Position numbers and translations under genes: made by a program. From an uncultured Verrucomicrobia subdivision 3 bacterium (GTDB lineage: Bacteria > Verrucomicrobiota > Verrucomicrobiia > Limisphaerales > UBA11358), in the NCBI GenBank assembly GCA_903865745.1, contig CAIPKV010000038.1, positions 1-53,110 of the forward strand: 53,110 nt of DNA, read 5' to 3'. Below, in pieces: positions 3,384-49,142 of this stretch. Position 1 is the stretch's first letter. Each line of letters starts with the position of its first letter. The notes under the pieces were generated by a model that did no database searches, was not told the DNA's origin, and saw only the letters and a program-made list of their open reading frames with translations.

Positions 3384-5063
3384 TTACGGTTTCTGTTTTC
3401 TATTGTGGGTTGTGGCGAAGCGCATTTCCTTTTTTACCCCGCTCGTCATCAATACTGCAAATGAGTAACCCGCCAAATCCACATCAATTCGACTGATTAA
3501 ATCAGGAATGATATTTTTCAGCTCTGCCCTCACACTATTATTTTTCAACGACTTTCTAATCAGCTCCTTGTCTGAGCTGATTAATTGGTTTAACAGCTCC
3601 ACGGCCTTTTTGGGGTCATTTGCGAATAAAACAACAGTTTCGGTTACACGATTGCCTTCGCTGTCAATTTCAGTCACGGATGATTTTGATTTGTTAAACA
3701 ATGCCATTAACTTCAAAACGCTAATCGGATTTGTTTTAATGACGGCCTGTTTCGATTCTTCCTGTTGAATCTGAATTCTAACCAAATTCCTTTGCTGGCT
3801 CGCCTTTGTTAAATTGGATTGCAATTCTGCAACGTCTTCCAAATCGGGGTTGTTCGCCATTTCTGACAACCGCTTAATCACGATGTTGAGCCTACCAAGT
3901 TCCGTGTTTAACTTGCCAAGTTGTGAATCTGTTTTTGGGGTGGGCTTAAACAATAATTCATCCGGCGATTTGAGAAGAACTTTACGGAAAACCATTTCCT
4001 CAAAATCATCCGTTTTCCACCATGTTGTTACCGTGCATAAATTGACACGGGACTTTCGACAGCCCATATAACTGTAATAGGTGTTTCCAACCTTGTGATA
4101 CCTTACCCCAACGTCATGCCCACAAGACGCACACCACATCAAGCACTTGAATAAGTTGGTTACGTTGCCACTGCTGCACCCGCCTCTATTGTAGGCGTTC
4201 TTGTCAATTCGGTTTTGCACTCTGTTGAATGTCTGCTCGTCAATAATCTCTGGATAATAATCATTTGTTTCAAAATCGTTAATTTTGCACCAGCCGGTCA
4301 AAGATTTGTTGGTCAATATGTTTCTTATCGTCGTGTTATACCAATATGCCTTTGACTTTTTTTCGCTCACGATTTTCTTGGATAAGCCAAACCGTGTTTT
4401 CTTCTCAACATTCAGAATCTTCGCAATTGCGATGCAACTTTTGCCGCTCAAATACAGGTCGTAGATTCTCTTTATGTCTTCAACCATGCAGTCGTCTTTG
4501 ACGAATTGCCCGTCTTTGACGCCGTTAATCCAACGTGGTGATTGCCCGCCGAAGTAAACCTTTTCACCCTTCTTGGCTCTTGCCACTTTTTTTATCAGAT
4601 TGCGTTTTGAGAATCCACTTTTGCGTTCGGATTCCTTTCTCGCACGTTGAATATCATTCACCACTAATTGAAGGATGTTTGAATTCTCAGACAAAACCTT
4701 TTGGTCAATAACGATGTCCATTGAGACGACGCCGATGGAAACTCCTGCGTAAATCAAATCCAAGAATCGCTTCGTGTTTTTCCATTCTATATCCCGGCCA
4801 AATCGGTCCCAGTTCTCAAAACATAGGCAAATCGGAATGGGGATTTTCCCCGTCTTCACATCCTCAATGAATTTTCCAAGGACGGTATCATTATTGAAAT
4901 TTTTGCCGGAGAAACTTGAGCCGACGTATTCCATTGTTTGAACCACTTGAAGTTTGTGATTTTTAATGAAATCTAGGACTTCGATGGATTCCGATTGTCT
5001 GGTTAAACCGTCTCCCCTATTCTGCTTCCCCGAACTGATGCGGTTGTATAGGTAAGTTCTCAT
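3384..5063 (-). CDS. Large serine recombinase (site-specific integrase)
   Basis: A protein of 559 residues. The N-terminal resolvase domain has the nucleophile Ser10 in YNRISSGKQ (with Arg8) and the NWDRFGRD motif at about 84-91. The recombinase domain follows at about 165-290 (WYNTTIRNILTNKSLTGW). A zinc ribbon has Cys at about 307, 311, 314, 335 and 343. A coiled coil at about 375-435 follows, as in phage integrases and Tn-type transposases of this class. These enzymes join attP and attB through a serine-DNA bond and need no homology beyond a 2-bp core. All catalytic residues I can check are present, so it may be active. Its start codon overlaps the extreme 5' end of the NUDIX open frame, which fits an attachment site between the two genes. 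Confidence 0.92.
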   Translation of the reverse strand: MRTYLYNRISSGKQNRGDGLTRQSESIEVLDFIKNHKLQVVQTMEYVGSSFSGKNFNNDTVLGKFIEDVKTGKIPIPICLCFENWDRFGRDIEWKNTKRFLDLIYAGVSIGVVSMDIVIDQKVLSENSNILQLVVNDIQRARKESERKSGFSKRNLIKKVARAKKGEKVYFGGQSPRWINGVKDGQFVKDDCMVEDIKRIYDLYLSGKSCIAIAKILNVEKKTRFGLSKKIVSEKKSKAYWYNTTIRNILTNKSLTGWCKINDFETNDYYPEIIDEQTFNRVQNRIDKNAYNRGGCSSGNVTNLFKCLMWCASCGHDVGVRYHKVGNTYYSYMGCRKSRVNLCTVTTWWKTDDFEEMVFRKVLLKSPDELLFKPTPKTDSQLGKLNTELGRLNIVIKRLSEMANNPDLEDVAELQSNLTKASQQRNLVRIQIQQEESKQAVIKTNPISVLKLMALFNKSKSSVTEIDSEGNRVTETVVLFANDPKKAVELLNQLISSDKELIRKSLKNNSVRAELKNIIPDLISRIDVDLAGYSFAVLMTSGVKKEMRFATTHNRKQKP

Positions 5064-6081: not shown

Positions 6082-6734
6082 TTCTTCGTTAAAAATCACC
6101 GGGAAGTCATTTTGGCGATGGCCAAATAGGACTGGTAAATAACAATCCACGTGTAGAAATAATTTAGCTGCCCGCTAAAATTGGGGTCGGCACCACAATG
6201 GACTTTCTCGATGGCAGCGCGGTGGTTCAGGGATTTGGCGGCATCTGGCAGGGGCGGATGGGCGCGATTCAGACGGAGTGTTGCCCTAGTGAGATTCGCA
6301 AGGCTGCGTCGGCGATGCGCAAAACTTCGACGCCGATGCACATATACCCTCCCCAGATACGCATCTATCTCTCCCCGATGCGCAATTATCTTCCCCAGTT
6401 ACGCGTAGCTGTCGGGTATATGCGCGTATATCTTTCAGTTATGCGCAGCGCGCTTATTTATATGCGCATATTTCTTTCCCCGATGCGCGTATTTCTCCGG
6501 GACTTGCGCATTTATTTCATTTAAATGGGCATTTATATGAAAACTATGTGCATATTTATCACATTAATCCGCGTCAAAAACCTATTTCCGACCATATATT
6601 TGATAGTTTTAACGCTAAAGCGCATTTATTCGCGTTTTTTGCCGTTTTTTAGCCACTTTCCTGACGAATTACTCGCCGGGCATTAAGCAAACGCAGGTTA
6701 ACCCTGCTTCCTACAAAACAAGAAGACGTAAATT
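6082..6734. other. Intergenic region holding array A and a probable promoter for the next gene
   Basis: This 653-base gap has no credible gene. 6294-6587 is repeat array A (separate entry). After the array the sequence is rich in A and T with decaying traces of the unit (GCGCATTTATT near 6620). A near-palindrome GCAGG-TTAAC-CCTGC lies at 6693-6707, shortly before the start of the gene at 6735. A continuous open frame of 108 codons across the array exists but is only the translation of the 21-bp period into seven-residue steps. Confidence 0.6.
6294..6587 (+). repeat. Array A: 14 degenerate 21-bp tandem units
   Basis: Units start at 6294, 6315, 6336, 6357, 6378, 6399, 6420, 6441, 6462, 6483, 6504, 6525, 6546 and 6567, exactly 21 bp apart with no slip. 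The anchor is ATGCGC at the start of the unit (often ATGCGCATAT), followed by a C/T-rich second half such as TTTCCCCG. The centre is often palindromic (TATATGCGCATATA). Units differ at many positions but keep the anchor and the phase. It lies downstream of tadA. In one frame it reads as seven-residue repeats of the form MR-x-Y-L-S-P, but there is no ribosome site or conserved start. Confidence 0.85.
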
Positions 6735-21756: not shown

Positions 21757-21791
21757 GTCACCTGAGGAAAGCCGACTGGATTACAAACGCA

Positions 21792-21959
21792 AGGTTTTAT
21801 GTTTTGCGCCCGGGGTTTTATGGCCGGCATTCTGGGTTTTGTGGCTGGGATTTTGGGTTATGCGAGCCGCAAGGGAGGTTTTTTCCCGCGCAATGTGGGT
21901 TTTGTGACTCTCAATCTGGGGTTTTTCTTTCGCAGTGTGGGTTTTGTCAGATTTTTAGC
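21792..21959 (-). repeat. Array B: 8 degenerate 21-bp tandem units
   Basis: Units start at 21792, 21813, 21834, 21855, 21876, 21897, 21918 and 21939, all 21 bp apart. On the plus strand the anchor is GGGTTTTGTGG or close (six of eight begin GGGTTTT, GGGTTAT or GGGGTTTT). On the minus strand, the sense of the neighbouring genes, it reads as CAAAACCCA steps followed by a variable G/C-rich part with TTGCG in several units. It lies about 20 bases after the stop of the response regulator gene (minus strand), so again at a gene 3' end. In the plus frame it reads GF-x-x-x-x-x seven-residue steps. Confidence 0.85.
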
Positions 21960-28646: not shown

Positions 28647-30368
28647 ATGAGCACTGTTTCCGATCTCGACCTCAACTTGGACAACCTCTTCCAGCCCGCG
28701 TGGGCGCAGGGGAAAACCGAGACCAATAAATTCGCCAAGTTCACCGGCAACGAAGGCGTCAAGCCTGAGCGCACCTTCAGCGGCAAACCCGGCGAACGCC
28801 GCGCCCCACGCCGTGACGGTGCCGGTGCGGGCGGCTTTGGCGGTGGTGAACGTCGTGGTGGCCCGCCCCGCGGCGGTTCCAAGTTTGGCGAACGCCAAGG
28901 TGGATTCCGTGGTGGCGAACGCCGCGATGAACCGCGCGCGGAACGCCCCGCGCCGCCCGCGCCGCTGCCGGCTTTGAACGTTGCGTTCATTCCGGAAGAC
29001 CGTGGCGTCGAGCAATTGTCGAAGCAGATCAAGGTGACCGGCCGCGCATATCCGCTTTTCCAGATTGCGCTGCTTATCTTGCAGAAGGGCGAGCGTTATT
29101 CCGTTCTGCTCACCAAGAAAGCCAGCAACGCAGCGCAACCACTATTCGTCTGTGCGCTGGACGATTCTCCATGGACGAATGAAGACGAAGCCGTTGCGCA
29201 TGTTCTCAAAAATCATTTCGCCACGTTTTATACCGCCGAACGCATCCAGACCGAGCCGCCGAAGGGCGTCTATACCTTTGTCGCCCAATGCGGCATGAGC
29301 GGCGAGATCCTAGGCCCGCCGAACTATCACGATTACCAGAACCAGTTGCGCAAGCTCCACGCCGAAAAGTTTTCGCGCATGCCCTTCGACATGTTCAAGG
29401 CGCGCGTGAAAATCGTGAAGGATGAGGCCATCGTCAAAAAATGGATCGAAGACCAGAGCTTCAAGATCGAATACAATTGTCTCAACGTGCCGGAGCCGCT
29501 CAAGCTCGCGACGCTGGAGGACGTTGAGAAACATTTCCGCACCACGCACAAAGATTCCATCATCAAGCCGGTGGAAACGCTCACCGTCGCCGGTCTTGCG
29601 AGCCGCAGCCTGCGCGACAACGGCCTGCAGCGGCTCATCCGCCAGGAATGGGAACAACAGAAGTTTTTCCCGCTGCCCATCGCCACCAAGCTGAGCCAGC
29701 AGTTCGCGCAATACGGTTTGCAATTCTTCAAGGTCAACAAGACCGTCACCCACGTCAGCGTTGCCCGGCCGACCTTCCTTGACCTCGCGACCACGCCGGT
29801 TTCCGAGAACATCAAGCGCATCATCGAATACATCAACGGCAATACGAAATGCACGCGGAAGAAACTGATCGAAGCGCTCGCGCCGACCCCCAAAGTAGTG
29901 AAAGCGCCGGTCTCGGAAATTCCCGTCACCCCCGCACCGGTGGCCGAAGGTGAAAGCGCTTCCGCTCCAGCCCCCGCCGCTCCGGCAAAGCCGGCCGAAC
30001 CCGTCGCGCCCGAAGCGACGCCGGAACAGACGGCGGTTATTGTCGATTTGCATTGGCTCATCCATCAGGGCGCGGTCCTGGAATTCGCCGATGGCCGAAT
30101 GGAAACCGCCAAGAAACCTTTACCCAAGCCGGTGAAGCCGGCGAAGAAGCCGTCGCCCGAACAAAACGCCACGGGAACTGAAACCAGCGAACCTGCCGCC
30201 ACGACCATTGAAACGGTCACGCCGGAAACGCTCACTTCGGAAACGGTCGCCCAACTTCCCGCGCCGGTCGAAACTCCGGCCGCCGCCGTGGAAGCCGCAC
30301 CCGCACCGGCCGTTGAAATGCCGGCGCAGACGGAAGCTCCGACGGCCACGGAAGGAACCGCCGCGTGA
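28647..30368 (+). CDS. Uncharacterised protein with RGG-rich N-terminus, coupled to a DEAD-box helicase
   Basis: A protein of 573 residues. After an opening MSTVSDLDLNLDNLFQPAW, residues about 45-110 are low-complexity Gly/Arg-rich with RGG-like steps (GGERRGGPPRGGSKFGERQGG), typical of RNA-binding or condensate-forming tails. The centre (about 112-410) is folded and conserved-looking, with FVCALDDSPWTNEDEAVAHVLKNHF and CLNVPEPLKLATLEDVEKHFR; I do not know its family. The C-terminal tail (about 410-573) is Ala/Pro/Glu/Thr-rich with repeated PVE and PET steps. Its stop overlaps the GTG start of the helicase gene (GTGA), so the two are translationally coupled and may act in one RNA-related complex. 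Confidence 0.8.
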   Translation: MSTVSDLDLNLDNLFQPAWAQGKTETNKFAKFTGNEGVKPERTFSGKPGERRAPRRDGAGAGGFGGGERRGGPPRGGSKFGERQGGFRGGERRDEPRAERPAPPAPLPALNVAFIPEDRGVEQLSKQIKVTGRAYPLFQIALLILQKGERYSVLLTKKASNAAQPLFVCALDDSPWTNEDEAVAHVLKNHFATFYTAERIQTEPPKGVYTFVAQCGMSGEILGPPNYHDYQNQLRKLHAEKFSRMPFDMFKARVKIVKDEAIVKKWIEDQSFKIEYNCLNVPEPLKLATLEDVEKHFRTTHKDSIIKPVETLTVAGLASRSLRDNGLQRLIRQEWEQQKFFPLPIATKLSQQFAQYGLQFFKVNKTVTHVSVARPTFLDLATTPVSENIKRIIEYINGNTKCTRKKLIEALAPTPKVVKAPVSEIPVTPAPVAEGESASAPAPAAPAKPAEPVAPEATPEQTAVIVDLHWLIHQGAVLEFADGRMETAKKPLPKPVKPAKKPSPEQNATGTETSEPAATTIETVTPETLTSETVAQLPAPVETPAAAVEAAPAPAVEMPAQTEAPTATEGTAA

Positions 30369-31603
30369 AATTCGCCGCCCTGGGTTTGAGCGAGAAGGTG
30401 CTCGAAGGCGTCCGCGCCGTCGGTTACTCAGAGCCGACGCCCATCCAGCTGCGCGCCATCCCGCTCGTGCTGTCCGGCAAGGACGTCATTGGCAGTGCGC
30501 AGACCGGTACCGGCAAGACGGCGGCGTTTGCCCTGCCCATCCTTTCCAAGCTCGGCCAGCATCAACCCGGCGGTCCGCGCGTGCTCATATTAGAGCCCAC
30601 CCGTGAGCTGGCGGCGCAGGTCGAGACGGCCTTCCGCGATTACGCGCGGTTTCTGGATTTGAAAATCACCGTCGTCTTTGGCGGCGTGGGTTACGGCAAA
30701 CAGAACGACGAATTAAAAGCCGGCGCCGACATCGTGGTCGCCACCCCCGGCCGTTTGCTGGATCATTTGGAACAAGGCACGGTGAAGTTGGACAAGGTCG
30801 AATTTCTCGTGCTCGACGAAGCCGACCGTATGCTCGACATGGGTTTCCTTCCCGACGTGCGCCGGCTGGTGGAAAAATGTCCGCGCCAGCGCCACACCGC
30901 ACTGTTTTCCGCCACCGTCCCGCCGCAGATTGAAACGCTCATCCAATGGGCCATGCACTCGCCGGAGACGATTGAGATTGGCGCGCGCCGCTCGGTGGCC
31001 GAGACCGTCAAGCACGTCATCTATCCCGTATCCGACCTGCAGAAGACCGACCTCCTGCTCGAGTTGCTGAACCGCGTTAATTACGACTCCGTCATTGTTT
31101 TCTGCCGCACCAAGCACGGGGCCGACCGCTGCGCCTCCACGCTCAAGCGCGCGAACCACGCCGTCGCCGTCCTGCATTCCAACCGCACGCAGAAGGAACG
31201 CGAGCTGGCGCTGGAAGGTTTTCGCGATGGCAAATACGAAGTGCTCGTCGCCACGGACATCGCGGCTCGCGGGCTGGACATCGCCGACGTGAGCCACGTC
31301 ATCAACTACGATGTGCCGCAACATCCGGAGGATTACATCCACCGCATCGGGCGCACCGGGCGCGCGGCGAACACCGGCGACGCCTACACCATCATGGTGG
31401 CCGAGGATGCGCCGCACGTGTTTGCGATCGAACGCTTCATCAGCCAGAAAATCCCGCGCGTGAAGCTGGAGAATTTTGAATACCGCTACACCGCGCTCTT
31501 TGAGGAACCCAAGGTGGGTGCGCCCGCAGGCTTTCCTGGCAAAGTGCGCGGCGGTCGCGTCCACGGCGGCTACCACTTCGCGCCCGGCGGCCGGCGACGT
31601 TAA
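30365..31603 (+). CDS. rhlE: DEAD-box RNA helicase (RhlE-type)
   Basis: A protein of 412 residues with GTG start. All motifs are present: Q-motif PTPIQLRAIP, motif I AQTGTGKT, Ia PTRELAAQ, GG, II DEAD in LVLDEADRMLDMGF, III SAT, IV VIVFCRTK, V ATDIAARGLDI, and VI HRIGRTGRA. A short basic tail ends with GGRVHGGYHFAPGGRRR. It unwinds RNA, e.g. in ribosome assembly or mRNA decay. Overlap with the RGG-rich gene upstream suggests joint production. Array C starts 25 bases after the stop. Confidence 0.94.
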   Translation: MKFAALGLSEKVLEGVRAVGYSEPTPIQLRAIPLVLSGKDVIGSAQTGTGKTAAFALPILSKLGQHQPGGPRVLILEPTRELAAQVETAFRDYARFLDLKITVVFGGVGYGKQNDELKAGADIVVATPGRLLDHLEQGTVKLDKVEFLVLDEADRMLDMGFLPDVRRLVEKCPRQRHTALFSATVPPQIETLIQWAMHSPETIEIGARRSVAETVKHVIYPVSDLQKTDLLLELLNRVNYDSVIVFCRTKHGADRCASTLKRANHAVAVLHSNRTQKERELALEGFRDGKYEVLVATDIAARGLDIADVSHVINYDVPQHPEDYIHRIGRTGRAANTGDAYTIMVAEDAPHVFAIERFISQKIPRVKLENFEYRYTALFEEPKVGAPAGFPGKVRGGRVHGGYHFAPGGRRR

Positions 31604-32099
31604 TTTCCAGCGCCCGACTTAAGTCATTTGGCCAAACTCACCGGCCACTTGGTAACTCCCTTAGCCGCCTTGGCTGAAACATTCCGGCAACTGGCAGACC
31701 TTCTCGTCGGCTTGGCAGAATGATTTTACCAATGGCGGAGAACCTCGGCGGTCTGGCGGAATCATTCCGCCGCTTGGCGGAGACGTTTGACGGGTTGGCA
31801 GAATGATTCTGCCAGTGGCGGAGATCCTCGACGGCTTGGCGGAGTAGGTCTGCCAGCTGGCCGAGCTGCTGGACGGTCTGGCGGAATGGTTCCGCCCCTT
31901 GGCGGAGCAAAAGGTTGGCTTGGCAGAATGATTCCGCCAAGCCGACGGGAAGCTCCACCAAGCGGAAATATCAAGGGTTTGCTTGGTATTTAAGGATTTT
32001 AACCCCGTAAACTTAGTTTTTGACCAAGCGGAAGGTGATAGCTGGTCAAACGGTGTCTGCGTCAGGCTGTTTTTTTCTTTCCTGCCTGCCTGAACGCCC
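31604..32099. other. Convergent intergenic region holding array C
   Basis: This 496-base gap between the convergent helicase and dnaN genes has array C at 31628-31942 (own entry). The remainder (31975-32099) has a T/A-rich stretch at 31975-32020 that resembles the one after array D (39029-39075), including GATTTTAACC / GTTTTTGACC, and a run of T at about 32068-32078 that could end plus-strand transcripts. No gene is seen. Confidence 0.6.
31628..31942. repeat. Array C: about 15 degenerate palindromic 21-bp units
   Basis: The core GGC of the units lies at 31630, 31651, 31672, 31693, 31714, 31734, 31755, 31776, 31797, 31817, 31838, 31859, 31880, 31901 and 31922. All steps are 21 bp except two of 20 bp (31714 to 31734, and 31797 to 31817). 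The ideal unit is a palindrome with arms TTGGCGGAAT and ATTCCGCCAA around one G. Several units keep it almost whole (31920-31940, 31795-31815), while others keep only one arm. Array D at 38725-39016 has the same unit and the same placing of 20-bp steps. It lies between convergent genes. Confidence 0.9.
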
Positions 32100-33206
32100 T
32101 TAATTCAACCGCATGGGCATCACGACGTAGAGGAACGGGCCGTTGATTTTGATGACGCCGGGGCTGAGTTCGTCAATCAATTCAATGAAGACTTCGTCCT
32201 CGGACAGTGCGCTGAGCGGGTCGATGAGGTAACGCGGATTGAAGGCGATGGCGAGTTCCTTGCCCTTGTAGTTGATGGCCATGGTCTCTCGCGCTTCGCC
32301 GACTTCAGGGGAGTTCGCCGTGATGGTCAGGACGTTTTTGCCGAAGGCGAGCTTGACGGAATTAGCCTTTTCGCTGGTCATGATTTCGGCGCGACGCAGC
32401 GCTTGCACCAGTTCTTCGCGACCGACCGCAATACGTTCCTTGGCCTCACCGGGGATGACCTGGCGGTAGTTTGGATAATTTCCCTCAATCAATTTAGTGA
32501 TGAGCAGAACGGAGAAACCATTCTCGCTCTTGAGGGCGAAGGAGGCCTGATTTTCGCCGAACTTAAGTTCCACGTCGCCTTTGTCCTGGAGCAGGCGGTT
32601 GAGTTCGGTAATGGCCTTGGCCGGAACGATGAATTCGCCCGTGCTCTTCTCGGAGATGTCCACTTCCTCATCCACCAGCGCGAGCCGGCGTCCGTCGGTG
32701 GCCACAAAGGTCATCTTGCCCTCCTTAAGGCTGATGAAAATACCATTGAGCACATAACGCGATTCGTCGGTGGAGACGGCAAAGCTGGTTTTTCGAATCA
32801 TCGCGCGGATGTTTTCCTGGGGCTGGACAACTTTCTTGTCATCCTTGAATTTCGGGAGCGGCGGGAACTCATCGGCCGCCAGGCCGTGGATTTTGAAGAA
32901 GGATGAGCCGCTGTGAATGCTGGAAAGATTTTTGTCGTCGGTCTCAATTTCGATTTCGCCTTGGAGTTCGCGCACGATGCCAAAGAACTTTTTTACGGGC
33001 AGCGTGGTGGCGCCTGGCTTGGTCACCTTGGCGTCGACCTTGCAAGCGACGGTCACGTCCAAATCGGTCGCGGTAAACTCAACGTGGTTGCCCTCAGCGC
33101 GAATTAGCACGTTGGAAAGAATCGGGAGGGTGGTGCGGGTGCTGACAACATTTTGTACAGCCTGCAGTCCGGCGATGATCTGGTCTTTGGTAATCGTGAG
33201 GTTCAT
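32100..33206 (-). CDS. dnaN: DNA polymerase III beta sliding clamp
   Basis: A protein of 368 residues, close to the usual 366. It forms a ring around DNA that holds polymerase III. Three clamp domains are recognisable (MNLTITKDQIIAGLQAVQNVVSTRTTLPIL at the start; RAMIRKTSFAVSTDESRYVLNGI in the middle; VQALRRAEIMTSEKANSVKLAF in the third) and the C-terminal end GPFLYVVMPMRLN is that of the peptide-binding pocket. dnaA or recF are not next to it. Confidence 0.97.
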   Translation of the reverse strand: MNLTITKDQIIAGLQAVQNVVSTRTTLPILSNVLIRAEGNHVEFTATDLDVTVACKVDAKVTKPGATTLPVKKFFGIVRELQGEIEIETDDKNLSSIHSGSSFFKIHGLAADEFPPLPKFKDDKKVVQPQENIRAMIRKTSFAVSTDESRYVLNGIFISLKEGKMTFVATDGRRLALVDEEVDISEKSTGEFIVPAKAITELNRLLQDKGDVELKFGENQASFALKSENGFSVLLITKLIEGNYPNYRQVIPGEAKERIAVGREELVQALRRAEIMTSEKANSVKLAFGKNVLTITANSPEVGEARETMAINYKGKELAIAFNPRYLIDPLSALSEDEVFIELIDELSPGVIKINGPFLYVVMPMRLN

Positions 33207-38316: not shown

Positions 38317-38682
38317 ATGAATCCGGCTGACCTGTTCGCCCGTGAAGAAAACCCCGTGACCTTGGCGGCGGGTCAGACCTTGTTTAACGCCGGCGATCCG
38401 GCCGACAGCATGTTCGTCGTGCTGGAAGGCTCGCTCAACGTGGTGGTCGGCGACAAGATTGTGGAAAATTCTCAGCGCGGGGCGATTCTGGGTGAGATGG
38501 CGCTGGTGGACAACGCCCCGCGTGGCGCGACCGTCGTGGCTGCCGAAGCTTGCAAGCTGGCCAAAGTGGACGAGCGCCGGTTTCAACGGCTCATCCAGCA
38601 AAATCCCTTCTTCGCCACGCACGTCATGAAAGAACTCGTGGGCCGCATCCGCCAGATGAATAAAATCATCGCCGGCAGCTAA
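38317..38682 (+). CDS. Cyclic-nucleotide-binding domain protein, single domain
   Basis: A protein of 121 residues made only of a Crp/FNR-type effector domain: LAAGQTLFNAGDPADSMFVVLEGSLNVVV, then GAILGEMALVDNAPRGATVVA (the phosphate-binding cassette GEMAL...PRGATV) and the final helix FFATHVMKELVGRIRQMNK. There is no helix-turn-helix, so it is not a DNA-binding regulator by itself. It may bind cAMP or a similar ligand and act on a partner. Array D starts about 40 bases after the stop. Confidence 0.9.
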   Translation: MNPADLFAREENPVTLAAGQTLFNAGDPADSMFVVLEGSLNVVVGDKIVENSQRGAILGEMALVDNAPRGATVVAAEACKLAKVDERRFQRLIQQNPFFATHVMKELVGRIRQMNKIIAGS

Positions 38683-39142
38683 ACCAGCGCCGGACATCCT
38701 TGAACCAGCGCACTCCTTGTCGGTTTGGCAGACCTTCCCAGCGGCTTGGCAGAATGATTCCGCCGCTGGCGGAGTTGCTCGACGGTCTGACGGAATGATT
38801 TTACCACTTGGCGGAGCCCTTTGTCGGCTTGGCGGAATGCCTCAGCCATTGGCGGAGCAACTCGGCGGCTTGGCCCAGAAGGTCTGCCAACTGGCGGAGA
38901 CGCCGGACGGTCTGGCGGAGTGGTTCAGCCAACTGGTCGAGTGACTTGACGGCTTGGCGGAACTCCTCAGCCAACTGGCGGAGCAACTTGTCGGGTTGGC
39001 AGAATGATTCCGCCAGATCGTAAAAGGCAGGTTTTGTTTGATTTTTAGGGTTTTTGACCTAAAAACCGGGTTTTATGGCTGACGGGCGCCTGACGGGTGG
39101 CTAAAAAGTGCCAGAGACAGCTTAGACGGGGTGGTTGTTTAA
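38683..39142. other. Convergent intergenic region holding array D
   Basis: This 460-base gap between the CNBD gene and the carB half-gene contains array D (38725-39016) and then a T-rich stretch (39029-39080) similar to that after array C. GGTTTTTGACCTAAAAACC at 39049-39067 is an imperfect hairpin that could act as a terminator. No gene is seen. Confidence 0.6.
38725..39016. repeat. Array D: 14 degenerate palindromic 21-bp units, paralogue of array C
   Basis: The core GGC (or its variant) is at 38727, 38748, 38768, 38789, 38810, 38831, 38851, 38872, 38893, 38914, 38935, 38956, 38977 and 38998. Steps are 21 bp except 38748 to 38768 and 38831 to 38851, which are 20 bp. These two short steps are between units 2-3 and 6-7, as in array C if counted from its unit at 31693. 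The first units also agree (TTGGCAGACCTTC at 38725, CTGGCAGACCTTC at 31691), and both arrays end on a near-perfect palindromic unit. Confidence 0.9.
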
Positions 39143-40648
<1,506 letters not shown>

Positions 40649-40713
40649 AATCGAAACGGCAAGATGAAACACCAATTGCCGGCGAAGCGAAAGACAAAAG
40701 CCGGTGGTAAAAG

Positions 40714-42609
40714 TTATTGCGTTTGGAACCGCACGACGTACCACGGCTGGCTGCCCTCGGAAGCTTTCAAGATGGCATTGGTGCTGCCGACGAGTTCGGC
40801 CCCGGAATTTTGCAGCCAGCTATCAATCGTCTGGCCGTGCTCTTTGAGATTAAACCCGCCGAGCACGACATATTGTGCCCGCTGACGGATGTATGCGGGC
40901 GAATCTGTCAGGATAAGTTGCTCCACCCGCCGCGCACCAAATGGCCGCCACAGCGAGATATCGCAGTCGTCCTCGTTCCCGATGAAGCCGACCACCTTCA
41001 AATCCGGCGGCAGCAGAGCGCGCACGCCGGCGAGCGCGTCGAAGCGTTTCGAATAGACGGTGTAAACTTCCAGCGCCCGGGCAATGGCCGGTTGATCCGG
41101 ATGGCGCGCCGCCAGTCGGGGTAAAATGGTTTTGGCCGGCCACAGTGGCCGGTCCGGCGTCAGCACTAAAACGACCAAAGCCAAAACCAATACCGCGCCA
41201 ACCAGCGCCCGCCACCAGCAGCGTCGGACCACCTGCGCTTGCCCTGCGCCGAGCAGCAGTGCCGGTAACAGCAGCGGATAGTAAGGCCCAATGATGCGGT
41301 GCGGCGTGACCATCCCGGATTTCATGGAGAAAATCAGAAGCGCCAGCCACGGCGCAGCTAGCACGGCAAGGCAAAGATTTTTTGGAATCGCCAGCGCAGG
41401 ATTTTTGCCAATGCCATCGCGCCTAAAAAATGCGGCGGGGATAGCCACGAGCAACAAGACGCTCAAGCCAAATCCGAACCCAGCCCAGTCTTCCGTGGGC
41501 AGTTCGGGCAACGACTGAAAGCCCTCCTCGAAATTGGCTTCCATCGGGGCCGTCAGGAAATGTGGCAGGACGGAGAGGATGTGCGCATTCCACCAGCCGG
41601 CCAGCGGGAACAGCGGCGGTAGAAAATTGTTCAGTAGTAGCAGCAGCGCATTACCCCAAATGCCAACAAGGGGATGTTTCATGTTCATGCCCGCCCGCTC
41701 AATAGACAGGCCAGACCAGTCGTGTATGTAATAAATGTTGAGCGCCGCCGTCGGCAAAAATGAAACCACCGCGCTCAGAAGAATGATGAACGCCGTCATT
41801 TTCCAGTGGCGCCGCAAGATGGGTAGGAGCGGAAAAATTAAAATTGCGCAGGTGAGCAGCAGTGGGATGTTGCCAGCCTTCGCACCGGTCAGCAGTGCTG
41901 CCGCTAGAACCGAATACCATAAGTCTGTTGGTTGTCGCGATACCCACGCCCGTGCCCCAAACGCCAGCATTGCCAGTGCGTAGGCTGCGGGGAATGTATC
42001 GTTAGCATTACCGCCGGCTTGCAGTAAATAGTCATAGCCAGTGGGCACCAGCCACATCCATCGCCACGCAACCCGCGCGCGGACGCCCACCCGGGTGAAT
42101 ACCGTGAAGACCAGTCCGGGCAGCAGCAGGAATGGCAGAAAGTTGAGCAGGAATAACAGGCGGTCGGATTTGGTGAAGAGTAACAGCGGCGCGGACAGCC
42201 ATTCGATGCCGCAGGCACGGTCGTTCATCCGGAAGATTGGCGTGTGGATCCAGAACCAGCCGCCGTGCGCGAGCCATTGGAGCGTGCGCGACAGGCGGTA
42301 GTTGAGGCCGGTGTAATTGCTTGGCGGATAAATGACCCCGCCGATAAATATCAACACCGCCAGCAGCGCAAACGCAACGGGTAATGGCCGGCGAACTGGT
42401 TGGCAAAAGCGGCGGAGAATTTTATTCCAGACCGGAAACTTCCCGAGGTTTGGTAGATCAAATGTTTTCCGGCAAAGAAAAAGGCCGGCAATCGCAATGG
42501 CAAAAAAGATGAGGTAGCCAAATTGATTTAACTGACCAATTGCCGACAGGCTCCAACCCGCCAGACTCGCCAGCACGGACACCCAGATCCAAAGCTTGGC
42601 GAACTTCAT
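40714..42609 (-). CDS. Large polytopic membrane protein, glycosyltransferase-like
   Basis: A protein of 631 residues with about eleven to thirteen hydrophobic segments from residue 5 to about 485 and a soluble C-terminal part of about 145 residues ending [11 protein letters not shown]. The first outer loop has [19 protein letters not shown] and an Asp in [10 protein letters not shown]; this layout is like that of GT39/ArnT-type lipid-linked sugar transferases (GT-C fold), but I do not see a definite motif and call it only similar. It begins 4 bases after the ruvB stop, so they share a transcript. Confidence 0.65.
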
Positions 42610-48808: not shown

Positions 48809-49142
48809 AACGGCTGCTTCACCATCGCACCGACCATCTTCTGGCCTGTGCGTCCGTTAAACTAATTTGCAATTCCATACTAACGACCTGCGCGACCAAA
48901 TTAAATAGTTGAACGGCCAAACTACCGACTTGCGAGTATTATCTACCAATCTGCGGAACCAATCTATTGAGTTGTGTGTCCAATATACTGATTTTCAGCA
49001 CCGTACTACGGAACTGCGCATCCGTCCTTCCGCTTCGCGCGTCAGTTTTACCGGGTGCCGGTGCAATATCATTCATTATTTCTTGGGAATACCGCTCAGC
49101 CGCAGGTTTTTTAAGGTGTAGCAAGTTCGCCGAATGATCTAT
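48809..49142. other. Convergent intergenic region holding array E
   Basis: This 334-base gap between eboF and the U32 gene is mostly array E (48820-49050). The rest, 49051-49142, has an imperfect extra unit at about 49051 and no gene. No clear terminator with a T-run is seen, although TTTTTTAAGG at 49108-49114 gives a short T-run for plus-strand transcripts. Confidence 0.55.
48820..49050. repeat. Array E: 11 degenerate 21-bp tandem units
   Basis: Units start at 48820, 48841, 48862, 48883, 48904, 48925, 48946, 48967, 48988, 49009 and 49030, all exactly 21 bp apart. The pattern is C-x-x-A-x-TTGCG-x-x-x-CCAA-x-CTA; the best units are at 48925 and 48946. It is the most A+T-rich and degenerate of the five, yet the phase never slips. 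In the plus frame it gives seven-residue LR-x-x-x-T-E/D steps. It lies between convergent genes. Confidence 0.85.

Follow-up and report, generated by a model that had tools for sequence, protein, structure and literature searches.

A palindromic 21-bp array beside dnaN in a Verrucomicrobia subdivision 3 genome is one of many intergenic satellites with fixed unit length and locus-specific sequence

The palindromic array between a helicase gene and dnaN (array 1) in the 53,110-nucleotide window, contig CAIPKV010000038.1 of an uncultured Verrucomicrobia subdivision 3 bacterium, is one of a genome-wide set of non-coding satellites with a unit length fixed at 21 bp, two helical turns, and a sequence that varies between loci. 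The earlier note on this DNA, which described the palindrome, had missed this membership. The arrays may represent rows of dimer sites for a putative architectural protein with relaxed specificity, held in helical phase, a reading to which we assign a probability of roughly 45%. The combined evidence favours sites of the homodimer type on one face of the DNA over RNA hairpins or coding heptads. The two arrays with the unit of array 1 and their neighbouring genes are:

30365 to 31603, forward strand: gene for a DEAD/DEAH-box helicase, on the left side of array 1
31617 to 31959 (periodicity fit), no strand: array 1, the noted palindrome, built of P/Q units
31920 to 31940, no strand: the P unit of array 1 whose palindrome is best preserved, with 9 arm pairs out of 10
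32100 to 33206, reverse strand: dnaN, encoding the DNA polymerase III beta subunit, on the right side of array 1
38317 to 38682, forward strand: cNMP-binding-domain gene, left of array 2
38725 to 39016, no strand: array 2, same P/Q family as array 1, 14 units, of which 12 measure 21 bp and 2 measure 20 bp
39143 to 40744, reverse strand: gene for the large chain of carbamoyl-phosphate synthase, on the right side of array 2

Both arrays are thus located between convergent gene pairs. The palindrome had been placed at 31774-31940; array 1 is indeed found there and is larger, with 13 clear units from 31670 to 31940, 11 with a length of 21 bp and two with 20 bp, and array 2 is a second array outside that extent. 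The P unit, YTGGCRGAATGATTCYGCCAA, is palindromic, and the Q unit, approximately YTGGCRGAGCNNCTCGRCGGC, retains the left half of P and has a right half of about CTCGRCGGC. The palindromic unit is genuine. With up to three mismatches, GGCGGAATNATTCCGCC has 11 matches in the window, nine of them inside arrays 1 and 2, against 0.45 expected, and 11 matches were attained in no shuffle; TGGCNGANNNNNTCNGCCA has seven exact matches, all within arrays, against 0.00 expected. Two further units that had been called almost complete are so (38996-39016 with 8 of 10 arm pairs, and the 20-bp unit 38746-38765 with 7 of 10).

For the segmentation into units, six P/Q arrays were used: the two in the window, L017 and L018 from the same genome, L019 from G014 and the short L021 from G025. 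This resulted in 75 units (36 P, 38 Q and one unclear), of which 67 have a length of 21 bp, and P and Q alternate in 62 of 69 neighbouring pairs. The claim that half-sites recur about every 10.5 bp holds for the spacing, since the centres of GGCGGA and TCCGCC, as read from the unit, are separated by 11 bp within units of 21 bp and by 10 bp from one unit to the next (mean 10.5). It does not hold for the right half of Q and, because P and Q units alternate, about one half-site in four is off-pattern. The P/Q family, with four loci in the window genome (G000), one in G014, which is placed in the same genus, and the short one in G025, is the largest related group among 53 arrays compared. A CRISPR-like or phage origin was considered and rejected, as the two-unit P pattern matched no viral contig. 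The same pattern matched two genome contigs, CAISYZ010000234.1 (G014) and one from Arthrobacter, the latter taken as a chance match because no array is visible around it.

By eye, stretches resembling TTTTTGACC or GGTCAAAAA can be seen 50-100 bp outside the arrays at three loci of the P/Q family (31999-32035 at array 1, 39040-39070 at array 2, and about 1320-1340 of L018, the fourth array). In L017, array 3 is separated from the gene upstream of it by an ordinary terminator-like hairpin that has a T run (about 1040-1080), and for this reason the array is probably outside the transcript of that gene.

The extent of the class was determined by an unbiased scan of every lag between 7 and 129, using windows of 150 bp. 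In the window, only the lags 21, 41-42, 63, 83-84, 105 and 125-126 passed the threshold, at five loci whose units differ except for the common unit of arrays 1 and 2. The three remaining loci are:

6285 to 6577, no strand: 21-bp array with core ATGCGCAT, dyad p 0.005
21777 to 21956, no strand: 21-bp array with a unit near GTGNCTCGCANTCTGGGTTTT, dyad not detected (p 0.64)
48825 to 49069, no strand: 21-bp array with a unit near GANTTGCGCGTCCAATCTACN and a non-significant dyad (p 0.23)

The scan was applied to 453 kb of the same genome, made up of the window plus 20 further 20-kb stretches and amounting to 12.5% of the genome. In total, 34 periodic clusters were detected, 30 of them with a period of 21 bp or a multiple, whereas a Markov-resampled copy of the same sequences yielded none. 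The resulting density is about one array per 15 kb, or about 66 per Mb; were the sample representative, the genome would contain approximately 240 of them. Each of the 30 arrays measures between 180 and 587 bp and comprises about 8-26 units; together they occupy 9.2 kb of the 60.9 kb of sampled intergenic DNA. All but one (L082, without a Pfam match) are located outside confidently called genes; in 6 of the 30, the midpoint falls in a weakly scoring ORF. Where both neighbours were called, the gap holding the array is convergent in 8 cases, divergent in 4 and tandem in 15, compared to 15 convergent, 22 divergent and 51 tandem gaps of at least 200 bp in the sample as background. When unit profiles were compared under cyclic shift and on both strands, 21 of the 30 arrays resembled none of the other 52, and four related pairs were found among the 30. 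Since most arrays have their own unit sequence, it is the length that is constant. Higher-order repeats of 42, 84 and 126 bp also occur and resemble block duplication. In one place of the same genome (L084 9412-10684, G000:C1), three clusters have a period of 102 bp, which is not a multiple of 21; as a multiple of three, it is perhaps a coding repeat.

As 21 nt equal seven codons, the arrays could be read as genes or gene remnants encoding coiled-coil heptads. Reverse-strand readings of the six P/Q arrays do give heptads of the form LAESFRQ-A(V/A)ExLRQ, a reverse-strand ORF of 107 amino acids lies over array 1, and the PDB entries matched by a made-up heptad protein include designed coiled coils as well as a chemotaxis receptor. 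The search with the heptad reading led to arrays with very different units and the same period. At least one stop-free frame is present in 19 of the 30 own-genome arrays, which is frequent in short-period repeats anyway, and lacking in 11. Against this reading, the 20-bp units (8 of the 75 P/Q units) break the frame, the conservation profile has no 3-bp harmonic, and the variation in P is symmetric, so that it falls on third codon positions in one arm and on first positions in the other. Furthermore, no Pfam family matches the ORFs that lie over seven of the arrays, and the arrays sit between called genes. A coding origin is therefore regarded as very improbable.

The symmetry of the units was analyzed for 57 arrays, the 30 own-genome arrays from the unbiased scan and 27 others, by scoring each unit profile on a circle for reverse-complement symmetry against permuted columns. 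A dyad with p<0.05 was found in 21 of the 30 own-genome arrays (Fisher, 8e-24), in 15 of 23 others and in 3 of 4 more, in total 39 of 57, and was not detected at this level in 18 of 57. A mirror-symmetry control of the same geometry reached this level in 2 of 30, 0 of 23 and 0 of 4 arrays (2 of 57). The direct-repeat control did so in 9 of 30 own-genome and 2 of 23 other arrays and the direct-complement control in 6 of 30 and 0 of 23; both exceed chance for the own-genome arrays, and some units thus contain additional internal structure. In addition, the conservation levels of dyad partner columns are correlated over the 57 arrays (mean r 0.31 compared to 0.02, z 7.3).

The symmetry does not extend to compensatory changes. 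In the 57 arrays, dyad partners match in 3921 cases compared to 3879.2 after shuffling (z 1.58), a test in which a simulated coupling of 5% of the cells gave a z of about 5.6. In the 53 arrays, they match in 3695 cases compared to 3665 when shuffled among units (z 1.17). Partners drawn from neighbouring units match equally well (3697-3779, 53 arrays). Array 1 has the highest value of the 53 with z 2.8, its sister array at 38712 has -1.9, and one z of 2.8 among 53 arrays is not surprising. Within 36 P units, the free arm position 6:16 was matched 13 times with 13.1 expected, and only position 9:13 leaned towards covariation (23 compared to 17.6, p 0.015). The earlier note had argued that a lack of covariation between the arms would make the palindrome accidental; covariation is absent as tested, yet this conclusion does not follow, given that unrelated arrays are dyad-symmetric as well. 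Symmetric constraint together with independent arms is, judged from sequence, the pattern that homodimer sites would be predicted to leave.

The same result bears on the other use suggested for the palindrome, a chain of hairpins in RNA, which it does not support. More generally, the arrays might be transcribed, perhaps as 3' untranslated regions, with hairpins acting as terminators, stabilisers or sources of small RNAs. Arrays 1 and 2 do fold strongly (z -7.25 and -6.97), as would be expected of any palindromic array, and the own-genome arrays are somewhat nearer to 3' than to 5' gene ends (median 124 bp compared to 191 bp, one-sided p 0.023). Transcription of satellites is reported for Bacillus coagulans in the part of PMC8625621 available, which was counted in favour of a structured RNA. 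However, the arms do not covary over the 57 arrays, pairing within a unit is no better than between units, the predicted folds combine long-range stems with a few unit hairpins rather than forming a row of them, and RNA loops have no need for an exact spacing of 21 nt. The lack of any Rfam match in the window was also counted against this possibility, which is considered improbable, although less so than the coding one.

The length of the unit is far better preserved than its letters. In 53 arrays, 29 single-base gaps were counted compared to 4795 non-consensus bases (about 29%), and 38 of the 53 have no gap at all. In neutral bacterial DNA, indels would be expected to be several times more frequent. 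The 10.5-bp harmonic is elevated, with z values of 3.6 for A+T, 4.4 for purine and 5.9 for conservation; other harmonics are elevated as well, namely 7 bp in A+T (3.0) and 4.2 bp in purine (4.8). What the arrays have in common is a weak code rather than a single fixed motif. It was obtained by aligning 42 non-redundant families from several genomes on their dyads, with 88 cells examined. In the 24 families that have purines to the left of a centred axis, position -3 favours A (0.55, z 5.1) and position -9 favours T (z 3.0), with C or G at the centre; positional preferences are weaker in the remaining 18. The preference for A at -3 stands given the 88 cells, whereas the remaining ones are suggestive. 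The P unit conforms to this code.

These features could also be the product of mutation without any function, if hairpin-dependent replication slippage or template switching generates and extends tandem repeats of about two turns; the palindromic units would then remain between genes because insertions are tolerated there. This is the strongest of the alternatives and still rather unlikely. The location of 29 of the 30 arrays outside confident genes agrees with it, and so do the higher-order repeats of 42, 84 and 126 bp and, as described below, the patchy distribution among relatives and the lack of arrays at their dnaN locus. Mutation alone leaves unexplained the single fixed period with few indels beside so many non-consensus bases, and the conservation that is symmetric around the dyad.

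For the dimer sites, the proposed explanation is as follows. Each unit would be the site of a symmetric dimer, or a dimer of dimers, of a putative architectural DNA-binding protein with a relaxed sequence preference, for which spacing would matter more than letters. Because all dyads lie on one face of the helix, such dimers could line up next to one another on the array and, once assembled, might bend, wrap or bridge the DNA. The arrays would originate by tandem duplication and be retained only when in helical phase, and therefore the period would be conserved while the letters drift. One sequence-specific protein cannot account for the arrays because the unit sequences are so diverse. A continuous row of dimers had already been proposed for the palindrome and fits the excess of dyads over the mirror control, the symmetric conservation, the independent arms and the few indels; the mechanism is one that we infer. 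If true, this would be a rare case of selection on repeat length and not on letters.

The distribution of the arrays among relatives is patchy. At least one array of this class was found in 10 of 20 genus relatives with about 20 kb or more sampled each, and none in 180 kb of G001; G006, G026 and G068 (stretches all N) and G069 (4.7 kb) were left out of this count. These rates are not unbiased, since 12 of the 27 other arrays (L017, L018, L019, L060-L063, L065, L072-L074 and L076) were obtained by searching with array 1 or the heptad query as the seed, and several stretches in relatives were chosen from contigs with seeded matches (e.g., G014:C196, G018:C2 and C16, G020:C66, G017:C59 and G015:C87). 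Some arrays in relatives are weak, with a single multiple of 21 only (L149, the second of L155 and L204, among several). L064, L066-L068, L071, L075 and L077-L079, some of which overlap the unbiased set, were not added to the 57, and the A6 array of G025 is below the length for inclusion. The longest of the 53 arrays, a 21-bp array of 1,080 bp (L144 11017-12096, G020:C66), has no dyad (p 0.52).

The position of array 1 is not conserved. From 46 genomes with a dnaN match, 30 loci were taken (the own one and 29 relatives), of which one had no downstream DNA. The 21-bp signal downstream of dnaN is absent in all 28 readable relatives, which refutes a conserved position at this locus and indicates that single arrays are dispensable.

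In other families of the order, 2 of 11 clusters in 277 kb belong to this class. Both are dyad-symmetric arrays of G040 with a period of 41-42 bp (L124 1486-1781 and 13938-14335, G040:C1). Their multiples lie near 41.67, which suggests four turns of 10.4 bp.

The arrays are of the same kind as the constant-size satellites of Subirana and Messeguer (PMC8161180, PMC6749651), whose function is not known from the parts of these papers available. The bacterial tandem repeats described in the part of PMC8161180 available have a constant size (20-21 or 52 nt) and a variable sequence, and are non-coding and species-specific; their unit length is noted there to equal two helical turns, and a polymerising nucleoid protein or small RNAs are proposed. 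As in the 20-21-nt class, the unit length of the arrays found here is fixed (or about double), the sequence varies between loci with small families, the arrays are mostly non-coding and many per genome, and their occurrence among species is patchy, as far as that class is covered in the available parts of PMC8161180 and PMC6749651. In contrast to the satellites reported there, they belong to a Verrucomicrobia subdivision 3 genus, at a density obtained with a looser detector than the published one. New are the measured dyad symmetry, the symmetric conservation without covariation, the rarity of indels and the weak common code. Neither 'palindrom' nor 'dyad' occurs in the available text of PMC8161180, which does state that short signals and their reverse are often present in the same 52-nt repeat. 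In the open literature surveyed, which covered few subscription journals, no report was found of such arrays in Verrucomicrobia or of dyads in the 20-21-nt class.

The 52-nt class of Bacillus resembles the present arrays in its fixed length and variable sequence, and differs in belonging to Firmicutes and in spanning five helical turns instead of two, as far as described in the available part of PMC8161180. Among the consensus units in Table 1 of that paper, 15 of 27 have dyads (Fisher, 2.6e-16), a count made without a mirror control and with some units related. We infer that periods of 21, 41-42 and 52 bp correspond to 2, 4 and 5 helical turns, of which only the equivalence of 21 bp and two turns is already published. 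It is conceivable, if doubtful, that many bacteria have a chromatin-like spacing code, with rows of dyads at whole helical turns (21, 41-42, 52 bp) and a dimeric architectural protein tolerating nearly any half-site, written in length-locked satellites that take up roughly a tenth of the intergenic DNA or more. If dyads, independent arms and whole-turn spacing hold in other lineages, the question narrows to which dimeric protein is involved and to the effect of a half-turn shift.

Other palindromic systems differ more strongly. REP, BIME and REPIN elements, which are associated with RAYT transposases, are intergenic palindromic repeats with one sequence per family genome-wide. The arrays are intergenic and palindromic as well, but no single palindrome is common to most loci and most arrays have their own sequence. 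RAYT transposases (PF01797) are present in 44 of 49 genus genomes whether or not arrays were seen, with no visible link to the arrays. The ARG boxes of ArgR are pairs of palindromes whose centres are about 21 bp apart and which are bound on the same side of the helix. They consist of one sequence in two boxes at arginine genes, in contrast to the long arrays of changing sequence described here. PARCEL repeats are likewise tandem repeats of dyad-symmetric DNA that can be read as an amphipathic peptide; they are 75 nt long and encode a 25-residue motif inside ORFs, whereas the present units of 21 nt are non-coding by every test made.
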